From assembly GCF_964204645.1 (NCBI RefSeq), contig NC_134025.1:10049001-10113000 (forward strand): DNA of 64,000 nucleotides, in the 5' to 3' direction. Origin of the DNA: Tubulanus polymorphus. Taxonomy: Eukaryota; Nemertea; Palaeonemertea; Tubulaniformes; Tubulanidae. Under the pieces are notes generated by a model. It saw only the letters and a program-made list of their open reading frames with translations, had not been told where the DNA came from and ran no database searches. The position numbers were made by a program, and so were the translations under genes. Positions 31,318 through 61,626 of this stretch are shown in pieces. How positions within the stretch are numbered: the first letter of the stretch is position 1; every line of letters begins with the position of its first letter.

Positions 31318-32148
31318 CTAATTTCCGAGTAAAAGGATTGATTTCATGGTTACAAAAAACATCGCTTTCAGTTGAATTCGAAAACGACGCCTCGAAGCGC
31401 AGTAAATAAAGAAATTAGTAGATGCTACTGACATTCTAATCAATCTCTGAACAGTATTGATGTATAGGTATAGATATCCTTTACCAATTCTACCATTTAT
31501 GGTTAGAATTAAATTATTTATGGATGCCCGGAGGTAAAATGATTTTTTAACAACAAACAGAGATGAGATGAGAACTAACGTGACTGTCAAACTACGGTCG
31601 TTACTATGGTGGTTTGTAGACATGATTTTTCTAACTGCGCTCGCAGACTTCAAAGTGAAAATCAATCGAATGGTAATGATTATTACTATCGAGATTGGCA
31701 TAAAGGTAACTATCGGGGCACGAATGAACACCTCGTAGTATCTGAAATAATTGTTCTCGCAAGCGCAGTCAATTTCTGCGTCCATCTCTCGTGTCCGGTA
31801 CATAGATTTATGGAACGTCGAGCAGTATACTTGAAAACATTCTTTATTTCTTCACATGTACAGATTAACATTACTAAAATATTGTAGATATAACCTCTCT
31901 TCGCGGTTATAAGCCGGACTGATTTCAGAGGCCAAACAGACAACGATATATCTGTCTATAGCTATTATGAATGTTATAAGATCTCCGACGTTTGAAAACA
32001 ATATTTGAAAATTTCTAGTATACGAATACAGACGTTTTATATCGTGGTTCAATTTAAGCGTCATGTCCAGTAATAAAGTTCTACTATACAACTCATAATG
32101 AAAATCTATTGTAATATACGACATGCAAGTCAGCAACAGCCAAACATC
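31318..32148 (-). pseudogene. peptide-type GPCR pseudogene (FMRFamide-receptor-like)
   Basis: Three minus-strand frames together read as a rhodopsin-class receptor. The first (from 32,148) starts with the TM2-like DVWLLLTCMSYITIDF and runs through TM3 to DRYIVVC, the G-protein contact motif. The frame then slips at the A-run 31,934-31,936 into WPLKSVRLITAKRG, then TM4. A second slip near 31,800-31,830 leads to the last frame, with an ECL2 Cys (DCACENN), TM5, TM6 and the TM7 end STNFFIYCASRRRF. The TM7 STNFFIY form instead of NPxxY, and the xPLK after DRY..C, point to the FMRFamide/peptide receptor group. TM1 is missing: an in-frame TGA at 32,149-32,151 precedes TM2, and the 164-bp satellite begins about 20 bp further on. 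Probably a decayed, 5'-truncated copy, though sequencing errors could explain the slips. Confidence 0.75.
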
Positions 32149-32169
32149 TCAGATAAAATATACTTGTGT

Positions 32170-33030
32170 TCGGTATATGGTCATTGCCCGGTGCAAGGGC
32201 TCCTTGAGGGTCTAATTGACACCCAAAGACCCCACAATATCAAAAATAATGTTTAGATATTGATAAGTAAAATACAAAACGGTCAAAGTCTCTGAAACCT
32301 TCAGAAAAGATAGAACTTTTCGAGAGCTACAGTCCAGTATATAGTTGTTGCCCGGTGCAAGGGCGCCTTGGGGGTCTAATTCACGCCCAAATCCCCAAAA
32401 TATCAATAATAATGTTTAGAAATAAATAAGTAAAATACAAAACGGTCAAAGTCTCTGAAACTTTCAGAGAAGATAGACCTAAACAAGAGCTACAGCCCAG
32501 TATATAGTTGTTGCCCGGTGCAAGGGCTCCTTGGGGGGTCTAATTAACGCCCAAAGACCCCAAAATATCAATAATATTGTTTGGAAATTAATAAGTAAAA
32601 TACAAAACGGTCAAAGTCTCTGAAACTTTCGGAGAAGATAGAACTATTCGAGAGCTACAGTCCAGTATATAGTTGTTGCCCGGTGCAAGGGCTCCTTGGG
32701 GGTCTAATTGACGCCCAAAGACCCCCAAAATATCAATAATAATGTTTAGAAATAAATAAGTGAAATACAAAACGGTCAAAGTCCATGAAACTTTCAAAGA
32801 TAGAACTATTCCCGGCCTACAGTCCAGTATATGGTCATTGCCCGGTGCAAGGGCTACTTGAGGGTCAAATTGACGCCCAAAGACCCCAAAATATCAAAAA
32901 TTATGTTTAGAAATTAATAAGTAAAATACAAAACGGTCAAAGTCTCTGAAACTTTCAGAAAAGATAGAACTTTTCAAGAGCTACAGTCCAGTATATATTT
33001 GTTGCCCGGTGCAAGGGCTCCTCGTCGGTC
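32170..33030. repeat. 164-bp satellite array, about six units
   Basis: The landmark GCCCGGTGCAAGGG recurs at 32186, 32350, 32512, 32678, 32840 and 33004, a spacing of 162-166 bp. Each unit also contains AAATACAAAACGGTCAAAG and CTCTGAAAC. Minus-strand ORFs of 64 and 69 codons across it are repeat translations. The array abuts the GPCR pseudogene on its left. Confidence 0.95.
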
Positions 33031-33334
33031 TAATTAAAGTTTTTTGCGCACTTCCGGTTCAATTAGCGCATGTTGCCGATGACGTCATAATCTCGAGCAG
33101 ACGATAAGCTTTCATATGACGCTAGGATGGAAATTTTTGAGCTAGGTAAAGTGGTCAAATTTACGTTTTTCTAAATGATTACGTCATATGAAGCCCAAAA
33201 ACTCCGGGAAAACTCTCAAAACTACTACAGCATGAAACAAGTTTATTAATCATGATTTTTGTTTAAAAAAAATTTGGGAACTAGTTTTAAAAACTATTAT
33301 AAAGTTTTCAAGTAAACGTTGCCATGGGTACACA

Positions 33335-35643: not shown

Positions 35644-38600
35644 ATGAAGTTCCACGATGATGGAAGAGTTGACAAGTCTGCTATAGGCCTACTGCTTTTA
35701 TATGGTAAGTATGTGGTTTGATTTCATAAGCCTGGCAAAATATCCGATCAGATTAGATATTATAACAGGTGCGTTCTTATCAAAGCATTTGGAAGATGCT
35801 ATGGAATAGAATATAATCCAAGATTTCATAACTCTAATTTTCTAAACATTTCTCCAAATTTCAATTTATTTTGAGTTGGAGCCCACCCAAGTTGTGGATT
35901 CATGAAGTTCCTCAAAGAATTTTGGAAATTCCATTGAAATGCTTGTGAAATCATACTCAAAGTATTAAATCCATCTCACCATCCAACCAACTCGCTATCT
36001 TGTATTGTCCATATTTTCAGCCATGTGCATCAGCACAGTTGTTGGGATAAACCATGACATCCTCAAAGAAATCAAAGAACATACAGGTATGATCTACAAT
36101 TCATTATGTACCATAGGCCTATCCGGTATCATCTCCGTCGAATCGAATCAAGTGTCCAAATACTATTCATATATACATGTAGCTGGCCTGTGCATACTTT
36201 ATTTAATAAAAACTCTTCTCAACCCTTTCCGTGCGTAAACACCGCAGTGCGGTGTATGAATCGGTGATGGATTTTGCTAGTACACCGCACTGCGGTGTAT
36301 TGGTGTAATTAGTAATTAGATTTTATCTCTATTGAAAGATGGCAGCACCTGTCAAACATTGTGAAATACTAGTAACCTACGATACATCGCGTCACGGTGA
36401 AGACGCACTATAGTGGTACGCCCGTTATTCAACACACTAGGGCGGAATTTTTCAAAATTTTCAAATTATCTCCAGCACTATAGGGTATTGATTAGTCAGC
36501 ACTGAAAGGGTTAACCAGGATCATGTACTCGGATTCTTCCATGTTTTATCCTCAACGATATTATATATACATGCATTGCTAATAAAAAATCTAAATTTCA
36601 GAGGTTGCGAAACAAATTATTGATATGGCAGTTTACGGAAAATTGCAGAATCAATCTTACAACCGTTTGGCCTTGTTCACTGATACCTTCGGAAACCGAA
36701 TAGCTGGATCTAAGAACCTAGAAAACTCTATAGGTACAACTATTGGCATTTATAACTGAAATTCAAGAAACCCCCATTCAACCAAATTTTTGAAGGCTTT
36801 TCTCATTGAATGTCAACTTTCAGATTATATTTTGAGTAACCTGGCAAAAGAAGGGCTAGAAAACGTTCACGGCGAACCAGTTAAGGTAATGTCACATATC
36901 GTCGATAGAGTGGTATAATGGACTCTAACTTGAAACTCAGTTGTACTGGAACTGATATTTCACTGAGTTTGATACCGTACATGTTTTTCAGGGAAATTGA
37001 ACATCTTTGTCTTGAGTGGCTTCTCGCCTTTTACTTTTTGTTTACTGCATACCTTGAGCCTTCATCAAATATCTATGATTTAAGGGTTCATCTTCATTGA
37101 AAAATAATCTCCGTAAAATCAGTTTTACTGAAATCTGGGCTATACCCCTGTAAAATATACCTACTGCTGCATAAAATCATTGAATTTCTTAATAAATTAG
37201 GTTCCTCGGTGGGTGAGAGGAAATGAAAGCGCCTACCTGATCAGTCCAAGACTCCAAAAATTGCGGTTGTTAGGTCTCGGTGGCAGCGTCGGAACACCTC
37301 CATCGGGTATAACTGCTGAAGTCATCGTAGTACGCTCATTTGAAGAACTGCATCAAAAAGCTGCAGAGGTAGGTGACCATGTAACGTGGAACCTTGTTAA
37401 TCTTGTGGGCAAAAGTGAAATTGTTGTATCAAACAGGCTTCGTAATATTCATCCAAAACTTTAAACAGAATTTTAATTAATGAGGTTCAACTGTATATTA
37501 TCACAAAGATTTCCCGAATCTCACCGAGGTTTATCCACCTGATTATTATTGCACACATTCAATTTTCTATTCTAGGCAAAAGGTAAAATAGTGGTTTATA
37601 ATCAACCATTTGTCAGTTACGGTAAAACTGTAAAATATCGGGATTATGGCGCTGGTGAAGCATCCAAAGTTGGTGGATTGGCTGCGTTAGTTCGTAGTAT
37701 TACTCCCTATAGTATATACAGCCCTCATACAGGCTGGAAAGTGAGTATGATATGACAAGTAAAACTTCGCAATGAGTCGCGAATGAAGTCAAATATAAGT
37801 TCCACAATCACAAAGCTCAAACAAAATAAAACATGAATTCCATGGAAGTGATTCAGTTATATTGCTTATCCAAGTTTGTTCGATATTGTTTCTAGGATCA
37901 TATGGATGGAGTGAAACCAGTTCCAACTGCTTGTATAACTATTGAAGATGCAGAAATGTTGAACCGTATGTACGATAGAGGTGCGTAGATGTATGATTTG
38001 AATGATACAATACACAGAGTGGCCATTCACCTGGAAAACTCAGGGAATCAGAAAATCTAGAAAAAATCAGGGAAAAGTCAAGGAACTTGACTTGTTCTCC
38101 GCAACAGTTTTTAGAGAGGCAGCTACCCCTTTCATTTTTATATCCACCCCTCTGAAAATCAGCCGCCCCTATAAAATATCTGCTGCCAATACTAGATTAG
38201 ATGTCAATATTCTATCAATGCACATAATTGCTTCGAAATGTATTGAGCTAATGTGAAAAGATAGAAGATTTCACCGAAGGATCGAAAGCCTTGTTACTTC
38301 AGCAGCCACGATATCATGCACTTATCAACAAATGCAAGTCCTTTAGAATTCAAGCGTATGGAGAACACTGGCTTCACACCTGGAAATCTCAAGGAACCAG
38401 AAAAATCTAGTTCAAAACAAAGGAATATTTATTTTTCATTTTCAGGCACAAAACTGCGAATACATTTGAATATGGAGGCAAAAAATCTGCCGATGACAAC
38501 ATCTAGGAATATTGTAGCTGAAATTGTTGGACGAGAAAAACCGGATGAGGTATGGCATGTATAGAATTGAAGTACCGGTATGTGTTTACAAACTTAAAAC

Positions 38601-40734
38601 ATGGTTTTATGATGCGCGCGTGTTGATCTGATTCAGGTTGTAATGTTTGGAGGGCATATCGACAGCTGGGATGTGGGTAAAGGAGCCATGGATGACGGAG
38701 GTGGTGCTTTCATCTCGTGGCAGGTTTTATCGTTGATTAAGCAACTAAAACTGCGACCGAGACGAACTCTGAGAATGGTTATGTGGACAGGAGAGGTGAG
38801 ACTGCTGTGATCATTCTTCCCAGTTTTCATGCTGCTACTACAGTTATCTCATGGTTTCATGCAGAAATTTTTAAACAGTTAAGAAGATGGATCAGCTATG
38901 ACATAACTCTTCAGTCTTAGTGCTAATAGCAGCAGACCCAGAACTGAAATATCTTGTGTTTAAGTTGTGCAGCGCACGTGGAAGAATGTTAGAAACAAAA
39001 TTGATTATTTAGGGAACCTAACTATTGAAAATGGAAAATTGTTTTCGTGTTTCCGCAGGAACCGTGCATTTGTGGCGGGCAAGAATATTTTAATCGACAC
39101 AAAATGAACATATCTAAGTATAACTTGGTTATGGAATCTGACTTGGGCACATTCAGGCCTATCGGAATTAATTTTACTGGTACGGCTGATGTCACGGTGT
39201 AGGATCCCTAAATTTGATTTGTCAATGAAGTTATCAATTATCTATCCATTATGATGTACTGCTAAGCTTTTAATCAAACCCTTCTAGACAATGCCTTACT
39301 CAGTAGCATTGGGACAGACTAGATATTGTGTCTGGATACCGGGTTAAGGATGCAAAAAATTGAAAGTCTTTAAAGTACTTTATAGGCTTAGCTAGTTTAT
39401 TTGACGTGCAAGCTTTTGGTACTAATGTATAATGATAGTTGCTTTATCAGGTAAATGTGTCTATCTTAATGAGTCACTAATTCACCTGATGAAGCTTCTA
39501 TACACTAGCAGCGAACGCTTGTGCGTCAAATAAACTAGTTAAACTATGAAGTACTATTCGTCTTGTTGTATTCATTCTACACCAGGTTGACACGGCTCCT
39601 TTTCGAATCATCTAGAATATCAATCTCGGTAAACTTCACAAACTTGAGTTGATTTCCGGATTCCATGTTACTGAGTAAGGAGTCTACTCTATTTGCTTGA
39701 ATTTATTCTAATGATCAATTCTACTTAACAATTTGATGGCATTATTTTGCTCCAGGAGGTTGGCGTGTGGGGAGGACAGCAGTATTTTAATCTGCATCAT
39801 CAAAACATATCCAAGTACAACTTAGTGATGGAATCAGATATTGGTACATTTAGACCAATAGGGATTAATTTTACCGGTATGATTATTCCTTACCGTTCCC
39901 ATCAAAACAAATCAACATGATTATGCACGCTTGGCCCATTTCATAAAAAATACAAAATTCTTGTTTAGTTGCAATTAGTTACTTCATGTTTCCGATAAGT
40001 GCGTCAATTGAATGATATTGGTCATGAAACGGGACCTGTTTTCTTCAATAGAATCTTAATGGTTATAATTCATAAGTCCTGCAGGGTGGATCTTATCACA
40101 TTACCACCCACCAACATAAAACCTGGCCGTAGACCCTTCATTGGTCTATACCACCAGCACAGAGCAAATCTGCTGATGAAAAAAAAAGCATCTGATTGGC
40201 TTGATATATAGACTGGTGGCTAGGGACAACTTTTCTAACCTGCATGTTCATATAATCCTTACAGGTAATGCTCAGGCATATGAAATCATGAAGAATGTGA
40301 TGCAACTGATGTCCCCGATCGGTGCAACAAAAATATCGCCAGGCTACACTGGAGAAGATGCATTATTTTGGGTGAAGGCGGGTGTACCAGGATTAAGCCT
40401 TAACAATGACAATCGCAAATATTTCTACTATCATCATTCAGACGGTAAGACAGTTATGCGCGGCCTTAATTTTAGTCAATCTCCAGATAACCGTATAGCA
40501 TAAGAGCCTGATCAAGGCCTTATATTCATTAGGACATAGGCTTTCTTCACATAGCTTGCGCGTTACATTGTTAGAATACCATTTAGGTATATTCTCTAGT
40601 GAATAACTATTTTCTTAATCATTTCAGGAGACACAATGACAGTGCAAAATCCGCATGAAATGAATTTGTGTTCGGCTTTATGGGCAGTGGTGGCATATAC
40701 GGCAGCTGATTTGACAGAGATGCTACCCAGATAA
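35644..40734 (+). CDS. CPQ: carboxypeptidase Q (M28 metallopeptidase)
   Basis: Twelve coding exons: 35644-35704, 36021-36086, 36602-36733, 36824-36885, 37201-37368, 37576-37740, 37896-37980, 38446-38549, 38637-38795, 39756-39876 (or 39059-39179), 40265-40444 and 40628-40734. All junctions are GT-AG and in phase, giving 469 residues against 472 in human. The family is a di-zinc dipeptidase, secreted or lysosomal, that splits dipeptides. A hydrophobic stretch at about residues 13-29 ([17 protein letters not shown]) fits a signal peptide. Family blocks seen: LAVYGK-like [86 protein letters not shown] and YYHHSDGDTMTV. By alignment the metal ligands are H288, D300, E335, D362 and H432, with E334 as general base, all present. 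The start is the only Met before the signal-like stretch. Exon 10 is duplicated (separate entries). It ends tail-to-tail with SRP9. Confidence 0.95.
36219..36514. mobile_element. piggyBac-like MITE in CPQ intron 2
   Basis: The left end AACCCTTTCCGTGC and right end GCACTGAAAGGGTTAA are inverted repeats, the right one with a TTAA (left TCAA), resembling piggyBac-type termini. Just inside the left end lie two perfect palindromes, ACACCGCAGTGCGGTGT (36,239-36,255) and TACACCGCACTGCGGTGTA (36,281-36,299). About 295 bp, non-coding. Confidence 0.6.
38015..38420 (+). repeat. dispersed CCTGGAAAA repeats in CPQ intron 7
   Basis: GTGGCCATTCACCTGGAAAA followed by CTCAGGGAATCAGAAAATC matches the family also seen at 11900-12155 and 16615-16685. 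A weaker second copy (CACACCTGGAAATCTCAAGG) lies at 38,365-38,420, just upstream of exon 8. An 84-codon ORF crossing it is not coding. Confidence 0.55.
39059..39179 (+). CDS. CPQ: CPQ alternative exon 10a
   Basis: A 121-nt exon flanked by TTCCGCAG and GTACGG, open in the phase needed after exon 9 and before exon 11. It encodes 41 residues, of which 32 are identical to exon 10b. The differences cluster right after the metal-ligand Glu: EPCICGG here against EVGVWGG in 10b. The ligand Asp in MESDLGTF is intact. Of the two, the human sequence around this point is closer to 10b, so 10a is the likelier derived copy. Including 10a and 10b together would add 242 nt and shift the frame. Confidence 0.85.
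39374..39551. mobile_element. palindromic element with hammerhead-like core
   Basis: AGTACTTTATAGG and CTAGTTTATTTGACG at the left recur as reverse complement at the right (CGTCAAATAAACTAG, then ATGAAGTACT), so the element folds back on itself. The plus strand reads CTGATGA (39,486-39,492), a potential stem-loop to GCAGC, then GAA, CGC-TTGT-GCG and TC|A, the order of a hammerhead ribozyme with a short stem III, except that one A of GAAA is missing. The minus-strand arm has a more decayed version (CTGATAA). It lies between CPQ exons 10a and 10b. Confidence 0.5.
39756..39876 (+). CDS. CPQ: CPQ exon 10b
   Basis: The second copy of exon 10, also 121 nt, bounded by TTGCTCCAG and GTATGA. It encodes the second Glu of the EE pair (metal ligand), [10 protein letters not shown], and the ligand Asp of MESDIGTF, ending in NFTG with the last codon split before exon 11. 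It is more like vertebrate carboxypeptidase Q than 10a is, so I use it in the reference model. Confidence 0.9.

Positions 40735-43020: not shown

Positions 43021-61626
<18,606 letters not shown>

Follow-up and report, generated by a model that had tools for sequence, protein, structure and literature searches.

A probable pair of mutually exclusive exons beside the zinc site of carboxypeptidase Q in the nemertean Tubulanus polymorphus

Why should a peptidase gene carry two versions of the exon that supplies part of its metal site, and are the two used one at a time? The question is raised by a stretch of 64,000 nt from the genome of Tubulanus polymorphus (hereafter the window), in which a gene for carboxypeptidase Q (CPQ, peptidase family M28) was modelled on the + strand from exon 2 to exon 12 (36021–40734; Table 1). 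The model encodes 448 amino acids with either of two tandem exons, 10a or 10b, and its frame stays open throughout; a further 5′ exon upstream of exon 2 is possible. For the Pfam family Peptidase_M28 (C-terminal domain), the score was 100.1 bits with 10b and 95.5 bits with 10a, both far over the cut-off of 21.3. Four M28-positive places were detected in the genome, one of which is exon 9 of this gene. The EE pair and the ligand-type residues H, D, E, D, and H of the 10b version agree with those of 3iib_A, the ligand roles being taken from GCPII. The first Glu of the EE pair is presumably the catalytic Glu.

Table 1. Positions of the CPQ exons, of repeat and stem features in the flanking introns, and of the coq-2-like exon pair in the same genome
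Feature	Position	Strand	Remarks
CPQ exon 2	36021..36086	+	splice sites, open frame; first modelled exon, contains the ATG used
CPQ exon 3	36602..36733	+	gene model
CPQ exon 4	36824..36885	+	gene model
CPQ exon 5	37201..37368	+	gene model
CPQ exon 6	37576..37740	+	gene model
CPQ exon 7	37896..37980	+	gene model
CPQ exon 8	38446..38549	+	gene model
CPQ exon 9	38637..38795	+	encodes the His and Asp ligands and, with its last codon, the EE pair's first Glu
CPQ exon 10a	39059..39179	+	40 residues and first base of Gly codon
CPQ exon 10b	39756..39876	+	40 residues and first base of Gly codon; family-typical at Gly
CPQ exon 11	40265..40444	+	gene model; carries the final His ligand
CPQ exon 12, coding part	40628..40734	+	stop codon TAA 40732-40734
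Possible stem around 10a, 5′ arm	39007..39020	+	weak evidence
Possible stem around 10a, 3′ arm	39200..39213	+	weak evidence
MITE-like inverted-repeat element	39374..39610 (ends approximate)		44-nt arms, 82% complementary; in the 10a-10b intron
coq-2-like exon, upstream copy	G000 C5, L086:1674-1804		131 nt; 28/43 aligned residues identical to the downstream copy
coq-2-like exon, downstream copy	G000 C5, L086:2757-2890		134 nt

Several other features were seen in the window outside the CPQ gene. Repeated short open frames at 32077–33104, which share the peptide SKSLKLSEKIELFESYSPVY and similar ones in several reading frames, look like a tandem DNA repeat, and open frames built of a short repeated peptide on the - strand at 47330–48224 are probably a minisatellite. 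Open frames on the - strand at 31321–32148 resemble, by eye, pieces of a rhodopsin-type receptor with a DRY-like motif. An open frame at 55302–55739 on the + strand resembles, also by eye, an Ena/VASP EVH1 domain.

Exons 10a and 10b are adjacent and homologous. Each is 121 nt long, comprising 40 codons plus one nucleotide, with entry phase 0 and exit phase 1, and both are bordered by intact AG/GT splice sites (cag/GAA...CTG/gtacgg for 10a and cag/GAG...CCG/gtatga for 10b). They are identical at 85 of 121 nt and specify the same residue in 31 of 40 full codons, or at 32 of 41 positions when the split Gly codon is counted, so that the length, phases, splice sites, and residue identity given in the original prediction all hold. 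The exon-10 protein was searched against the genome (268 Mb in 77 contigs, in which stretches reading N could hide further exon-10 copies) and matched two places, 10b and 10a (E = 3.2e-16 for 10a), indicating that the likeness of the two exons is not due to chance. The DNA of 10a matched itself only. That 10a belongs as a stray exon to a paralogue or to another gene was rejected, as no other exon-10 match was found in the genome.

Neither the inclusion of both exons nor the skipping of both leaves a normal protein. In the gene model, 10a joined to 10b leads to a stop after 32 nt of 10b, and when both are skipped the frame ends 24 nt into exon 11, bearing out the earlier statement that exactly one of the two is needed. 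Early stops that lie upstream of exon junctions direct messages to nonsense-mediated decay. Since exon junctions remain downstream of the early stop in both the double-inclusion and the double-skip messages, such decay is expected for them. The term "frame-enforced", under which the pair was first described, is therefore apt for the constraint on a useful protein, but the frame by itself does not explain how splicing makes its choice.

The four residues that follow the zinc-ligand Glu read PCIC in 10a and VGVW in 10b, as had been noticed at the outset, and most of the oddity of 10a is concentrated in this stretch, where a C-x-C pair is added directly after the Glu. The two exons were compared with the best 80 of at least 582 confirmed bacterial relatives (from at least 598 pattern-matched stretches), all 80 of which could be aligned; the peptide patterns used to find them lie outside exon 10, and the query used for confirmation contains 10b, giving the set a slight lean to 10b. 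Six residues, E, E, G, Y, D, and G, are invariant in 80/80 relatives, the first E being encoded by the last codon of exon 9, and 10a and 10b each keep those that they encode. At the position two after the ligand Glu, Gly was found in 76 of the 80 relatives, other residues in four, and Cys in none. This Gly, which is common but not obligatory in the family, is present in 10b and replaced by Cys in 10a. Pro directly after the ligand Glu, as in 10a, occurs in 0/80. One differing site is more typical in 10a, with Lys (16/80) versus the His of 10b (1/80), while at the remaining differing sites neither exon is clearly closer to these bacterial relatives.

A structural frame for these changes is provided by human GCPII, in which Glu425 and Asp453 are reported to bind zinc (PMC10865363) and Leu428 to line the S1′ site (PMC9976286). 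The Glu and Asp of exon 10 align by eye with Glu425 and Asp453 (with a one-residue gap before the Asp; the spacing was checked), which is consistent with the proposal that both exons encode a ligand Glu and a ligand Asp. When AEEFGLLGS of GCPII is set by eye and without gaps against GEEVGVWGG (10b) and GEEPCICGG (10a), the swapped four residues correspond to GCPII 426–429. By this alignment they would lie beside the dizinc site, on its S1′ side. At the position of Leu428 itself the change is mild, Val in 10b versus Ile in 10a.

The same replacements raise the possibility that 10a is indeed used as an alternative to 10b but yields an inactive or dominant-negative peptidase, serving as a regulatory isoform. 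The 10a isoform might be inactive because Cys in place of Gly and Pro after the ligand Glu are each found in 0/80 relatives, and because its Pfam score is 4.6 bits below that of the 10b version. However, 10a completes the EE pair and keeps the six invariant positions, and codons 6–40 are very strongly constrained, which a dead enzyme would need less. On account of this constraint, an active, re-tooled 10a peptidase appears likelier than a dead one; we regard the inactive isoform as rather unlikely, although this is one form of the mutually exclusive reading, and its chances overlap with those of that reading. We give about an even chance to the 10a isoform being active as a retuned peptidase. 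A further suggestion, that the C-x-C of 10a forms a thiol/disulfide switch or alters metal preference, so that splicing would switch CPQ back and forth from a constitutive form to one that responds to redox state or metal, seems improbable.

The original prediction also named the alternative that 10a is a decaying duplicate, i.e., a copy of exon 10 that is non-functional or seldom spliced in, and the PCIC of 10a, which breaks the Gly shared by 10b and most relatives, would fit such a fate. The dN/dS comparison proposed there was run pairwise and argues against decay. The exons differ at 36 of 121 nt, with 26 of these differences at third codon positions, and the Nei-Gojobori method gave a pS of 0.93 and a pN of 0.14. 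The pairwise codon model yielded a dN of 0.14 and no finite dS, which lies above about 2.5 (near dS 2.5 the profile likelihood has dropped about two units from its maximum), and omega = 1 was rejected (2dlnL = 48 over all 40 codons, 55 over codons 6–40). The shared codons differ at 7/8 fourfold and 6/15 twofold sites, in agreement with synonymous saturation, but few sites carry this signal. Throughout codons 17–40 the sole residue change is Leu/Ile, and 10a contains no stop and retains both splice sites.

Neutral decay was simulated from a 10b-like start, with every residue difference charged to 10a. At 0.15 substitutions per site, at most nine residue changes without a stop arose with a probability of 0.13, and at 0.20 with one of 0.02; decay beyond about 0.18 substitutions per site, the 5% point interpolated between these two simulated values, therefore misfits the nine or fewer residue differences observed. 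When the 150-nt intron flanks of 10a and 10b were aligned, their scores did not exceed those of shuffled sequence, 121/300 and 273/300 shuffles scoring as high. Saturated dS with low dN, the rejection of omega = 1, the misfit of neutral decay, and the unalignable flanks together indicate that selection has maintained the pair over most of its history, both copies being under purifying selection in a pairwise test of 40 codons that speaks mostly for the history of the pair and not for today. As the test is pairwise, a very recent loss of 10a function would be compatible with the observed divergence. The decaying duplicate is largely excluded by the saturated dS with low dN and by the unalignable flanks, and we consider it very improbable.

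Just as improbable is the explanation that 10a acts as a poison exon, whose joint inclusion with 10b would lower CPQ through nonsense-mediated decay, its protein sequence being incidental. The early stop in 10b, with later junctions downstream, would serve this purpose, but a poison exon needs no conserved protein, whereas 10a and 10b diverged under strong protein-level purifying selection. The least probable alternative is a last exon formed by read-through of 10a to TAG 39200–39202 and polyadenylation, giving a truncated protein: the open frame past the 10a donor does end after a few codons, but that donor is intact and in phase with exon 11, the residues of 10a are kept to the last codon, and the truncation would delete the final His ligand.

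The equal length, phase, splice sites, homology, frame consequences, and long-term constraint argue that 10a and 10b are a mutually exclusive exon pair, an assignment that we hold with good confidence. In this reading, CPQ exon 10 was duplicated in tandem long ago, and a message gives the full-length enzyme when it contains one or the other of the two resulting alternative exons. Exon 10b encodes the family-typical stretch after the zinc-ligand Glu, while 10a keeps the Glu, the ligand Asp, and other near-invariant residues and swaps the four after the Glu, losing the common Gly. Splicing may use the two exons one at a time, and messages with both or neither would be lost through nonsense-mediated decay. 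Judging from sequence, the gene probably makes two enzyme versions, and the most likely outcome would be two peptidase isoforms that differ on the S1′ side and, thereby, in substrate preference or rate.

As to the splicing choice itself, the intron between 10a and 10b is 576 nt long, which rules out steric exclusion as the mechanism. This intron contains the MITE-like element, for which at least 89 matching stretches were found in the genome, the one in the window included (40 of 643 candidates were scored). Its hairpin was rejected as a splicing switch: the element is one of a dispersed repeat family, and its presence here does not point specifically to regulation. A general inverted-repeat search of 38640–40265 found five pairs, of which this hairpin and a possible stem around 10a were looked at more closely, and no convincing competing RNA structure or docking-selector pairing was found in that region.

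The stem around 10a has 14-nt arms that are complementary at 13/14 positions, and it forms in the predicted fold. Scoring its arms without gaps gives 10, a value attained in 0/400 shuffles, and nine other exons tested score at most 8; random 121-nt placements in the window equalled it in 35/4000 cases. The fold of 38990–39230 has a z of -2.23, with 3/200 shuffles folding as well, and the folding energy of the 10a flanks is unremarkable, being matched by 153/5000 shuffles and 439/3000 random placements. No other match to these flanks was found in the genome. A bearing of the stem on the splicing choice may be considered as a lead only.

Mutually exclusive exons are a known kind of arrangement, and no report of them in carboxypeptidase Q was found among the titles and abstract openings that the literature searches listed. 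Like the published tandem duplicated exon substitution events, of which a curated set holds 236 human and 154 fly events, 10a and 10b are homologous tandem exons; residues that bind ligands or belong to domains are reported to be more conserved than others between the versions in such events (PMC9741552). In Dscam-type systems, one exon is selected from a tandem set by docking-site and selector pairing (PMC6071210), and the choice of one exon is likewise proposed for CPQ; at CPQ, however, no such pairing was found, but only the weak 10a stem and the hairpin of the repeat element. The exon switch in the fatty-acid gate domain of ACSL6 resembles the CPQ pair in that enzyme isoforms arise by an exon swap, although ACSL6 is a human acyl-CoA synthetase and no peptidase (PMC1543647).

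The closest parallel is coq-2, encoding the COQ-2 polyprenyltransferase, in which the mutually exclusive tandem homologous exons 6a and 6e are used one at a time and decide between ubiquinone and rhodoquinone, as reported with RNA-seq support and exon removal in C. elegans (PMC7434440, eLife 2020). The swap of 6a and 6e changes strictly conserved residues adjoining the substrate; Phe-to-Leu and Ala-to-Ser changes are reported for 6e, and the two exons are described as exactly the same length (PMC7434440). The two genes encode different enzymes with no evolutionary link.

A coq-2-like gene, found by a UbiA search and named from its translated sequence, is present in the T. polymorphus genome with two tandem homologous exons of the same phase (Table 1). 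Its dS was about 2.9 and its dN 0.27 at the best of six fixed tree lengths, the dS being no fitted maximum and the curve flat beyond. At a site occupied by Phe in the downstream copy, the upstream copy carries Leu; this presumably corresponds to the Phe-to-Leu change of 6e, the position being one not matched to C. elegans numbering. The reported Ala-to-Ser change was not seen between the two copies, and their lengths differ by 3 nt, unlike those of the published exons (PMC7434440). The pair thus resembles a 6e/6a equivalent and serves as a comparison, not as a proven control. Like the CPQ pair, it combines lengths that are not multiples of 3, a shared phase, and old divergence, which shows that an old, phase-matched exon pair of this kind exists elsewhere in the genome. 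Should the upstream copy be a genuine 6e, the animal may produce rhodoquinone.

Among the cases found, few exon swaps re-tool the active site of an enzyme; the clearest is coq-2, whose swap governs a metabolic switch. The CPQ pair would allow two natural active sites to be compared in one zinc-peptidase scaffold and would show how a peptidase can diversify without gene duplication.
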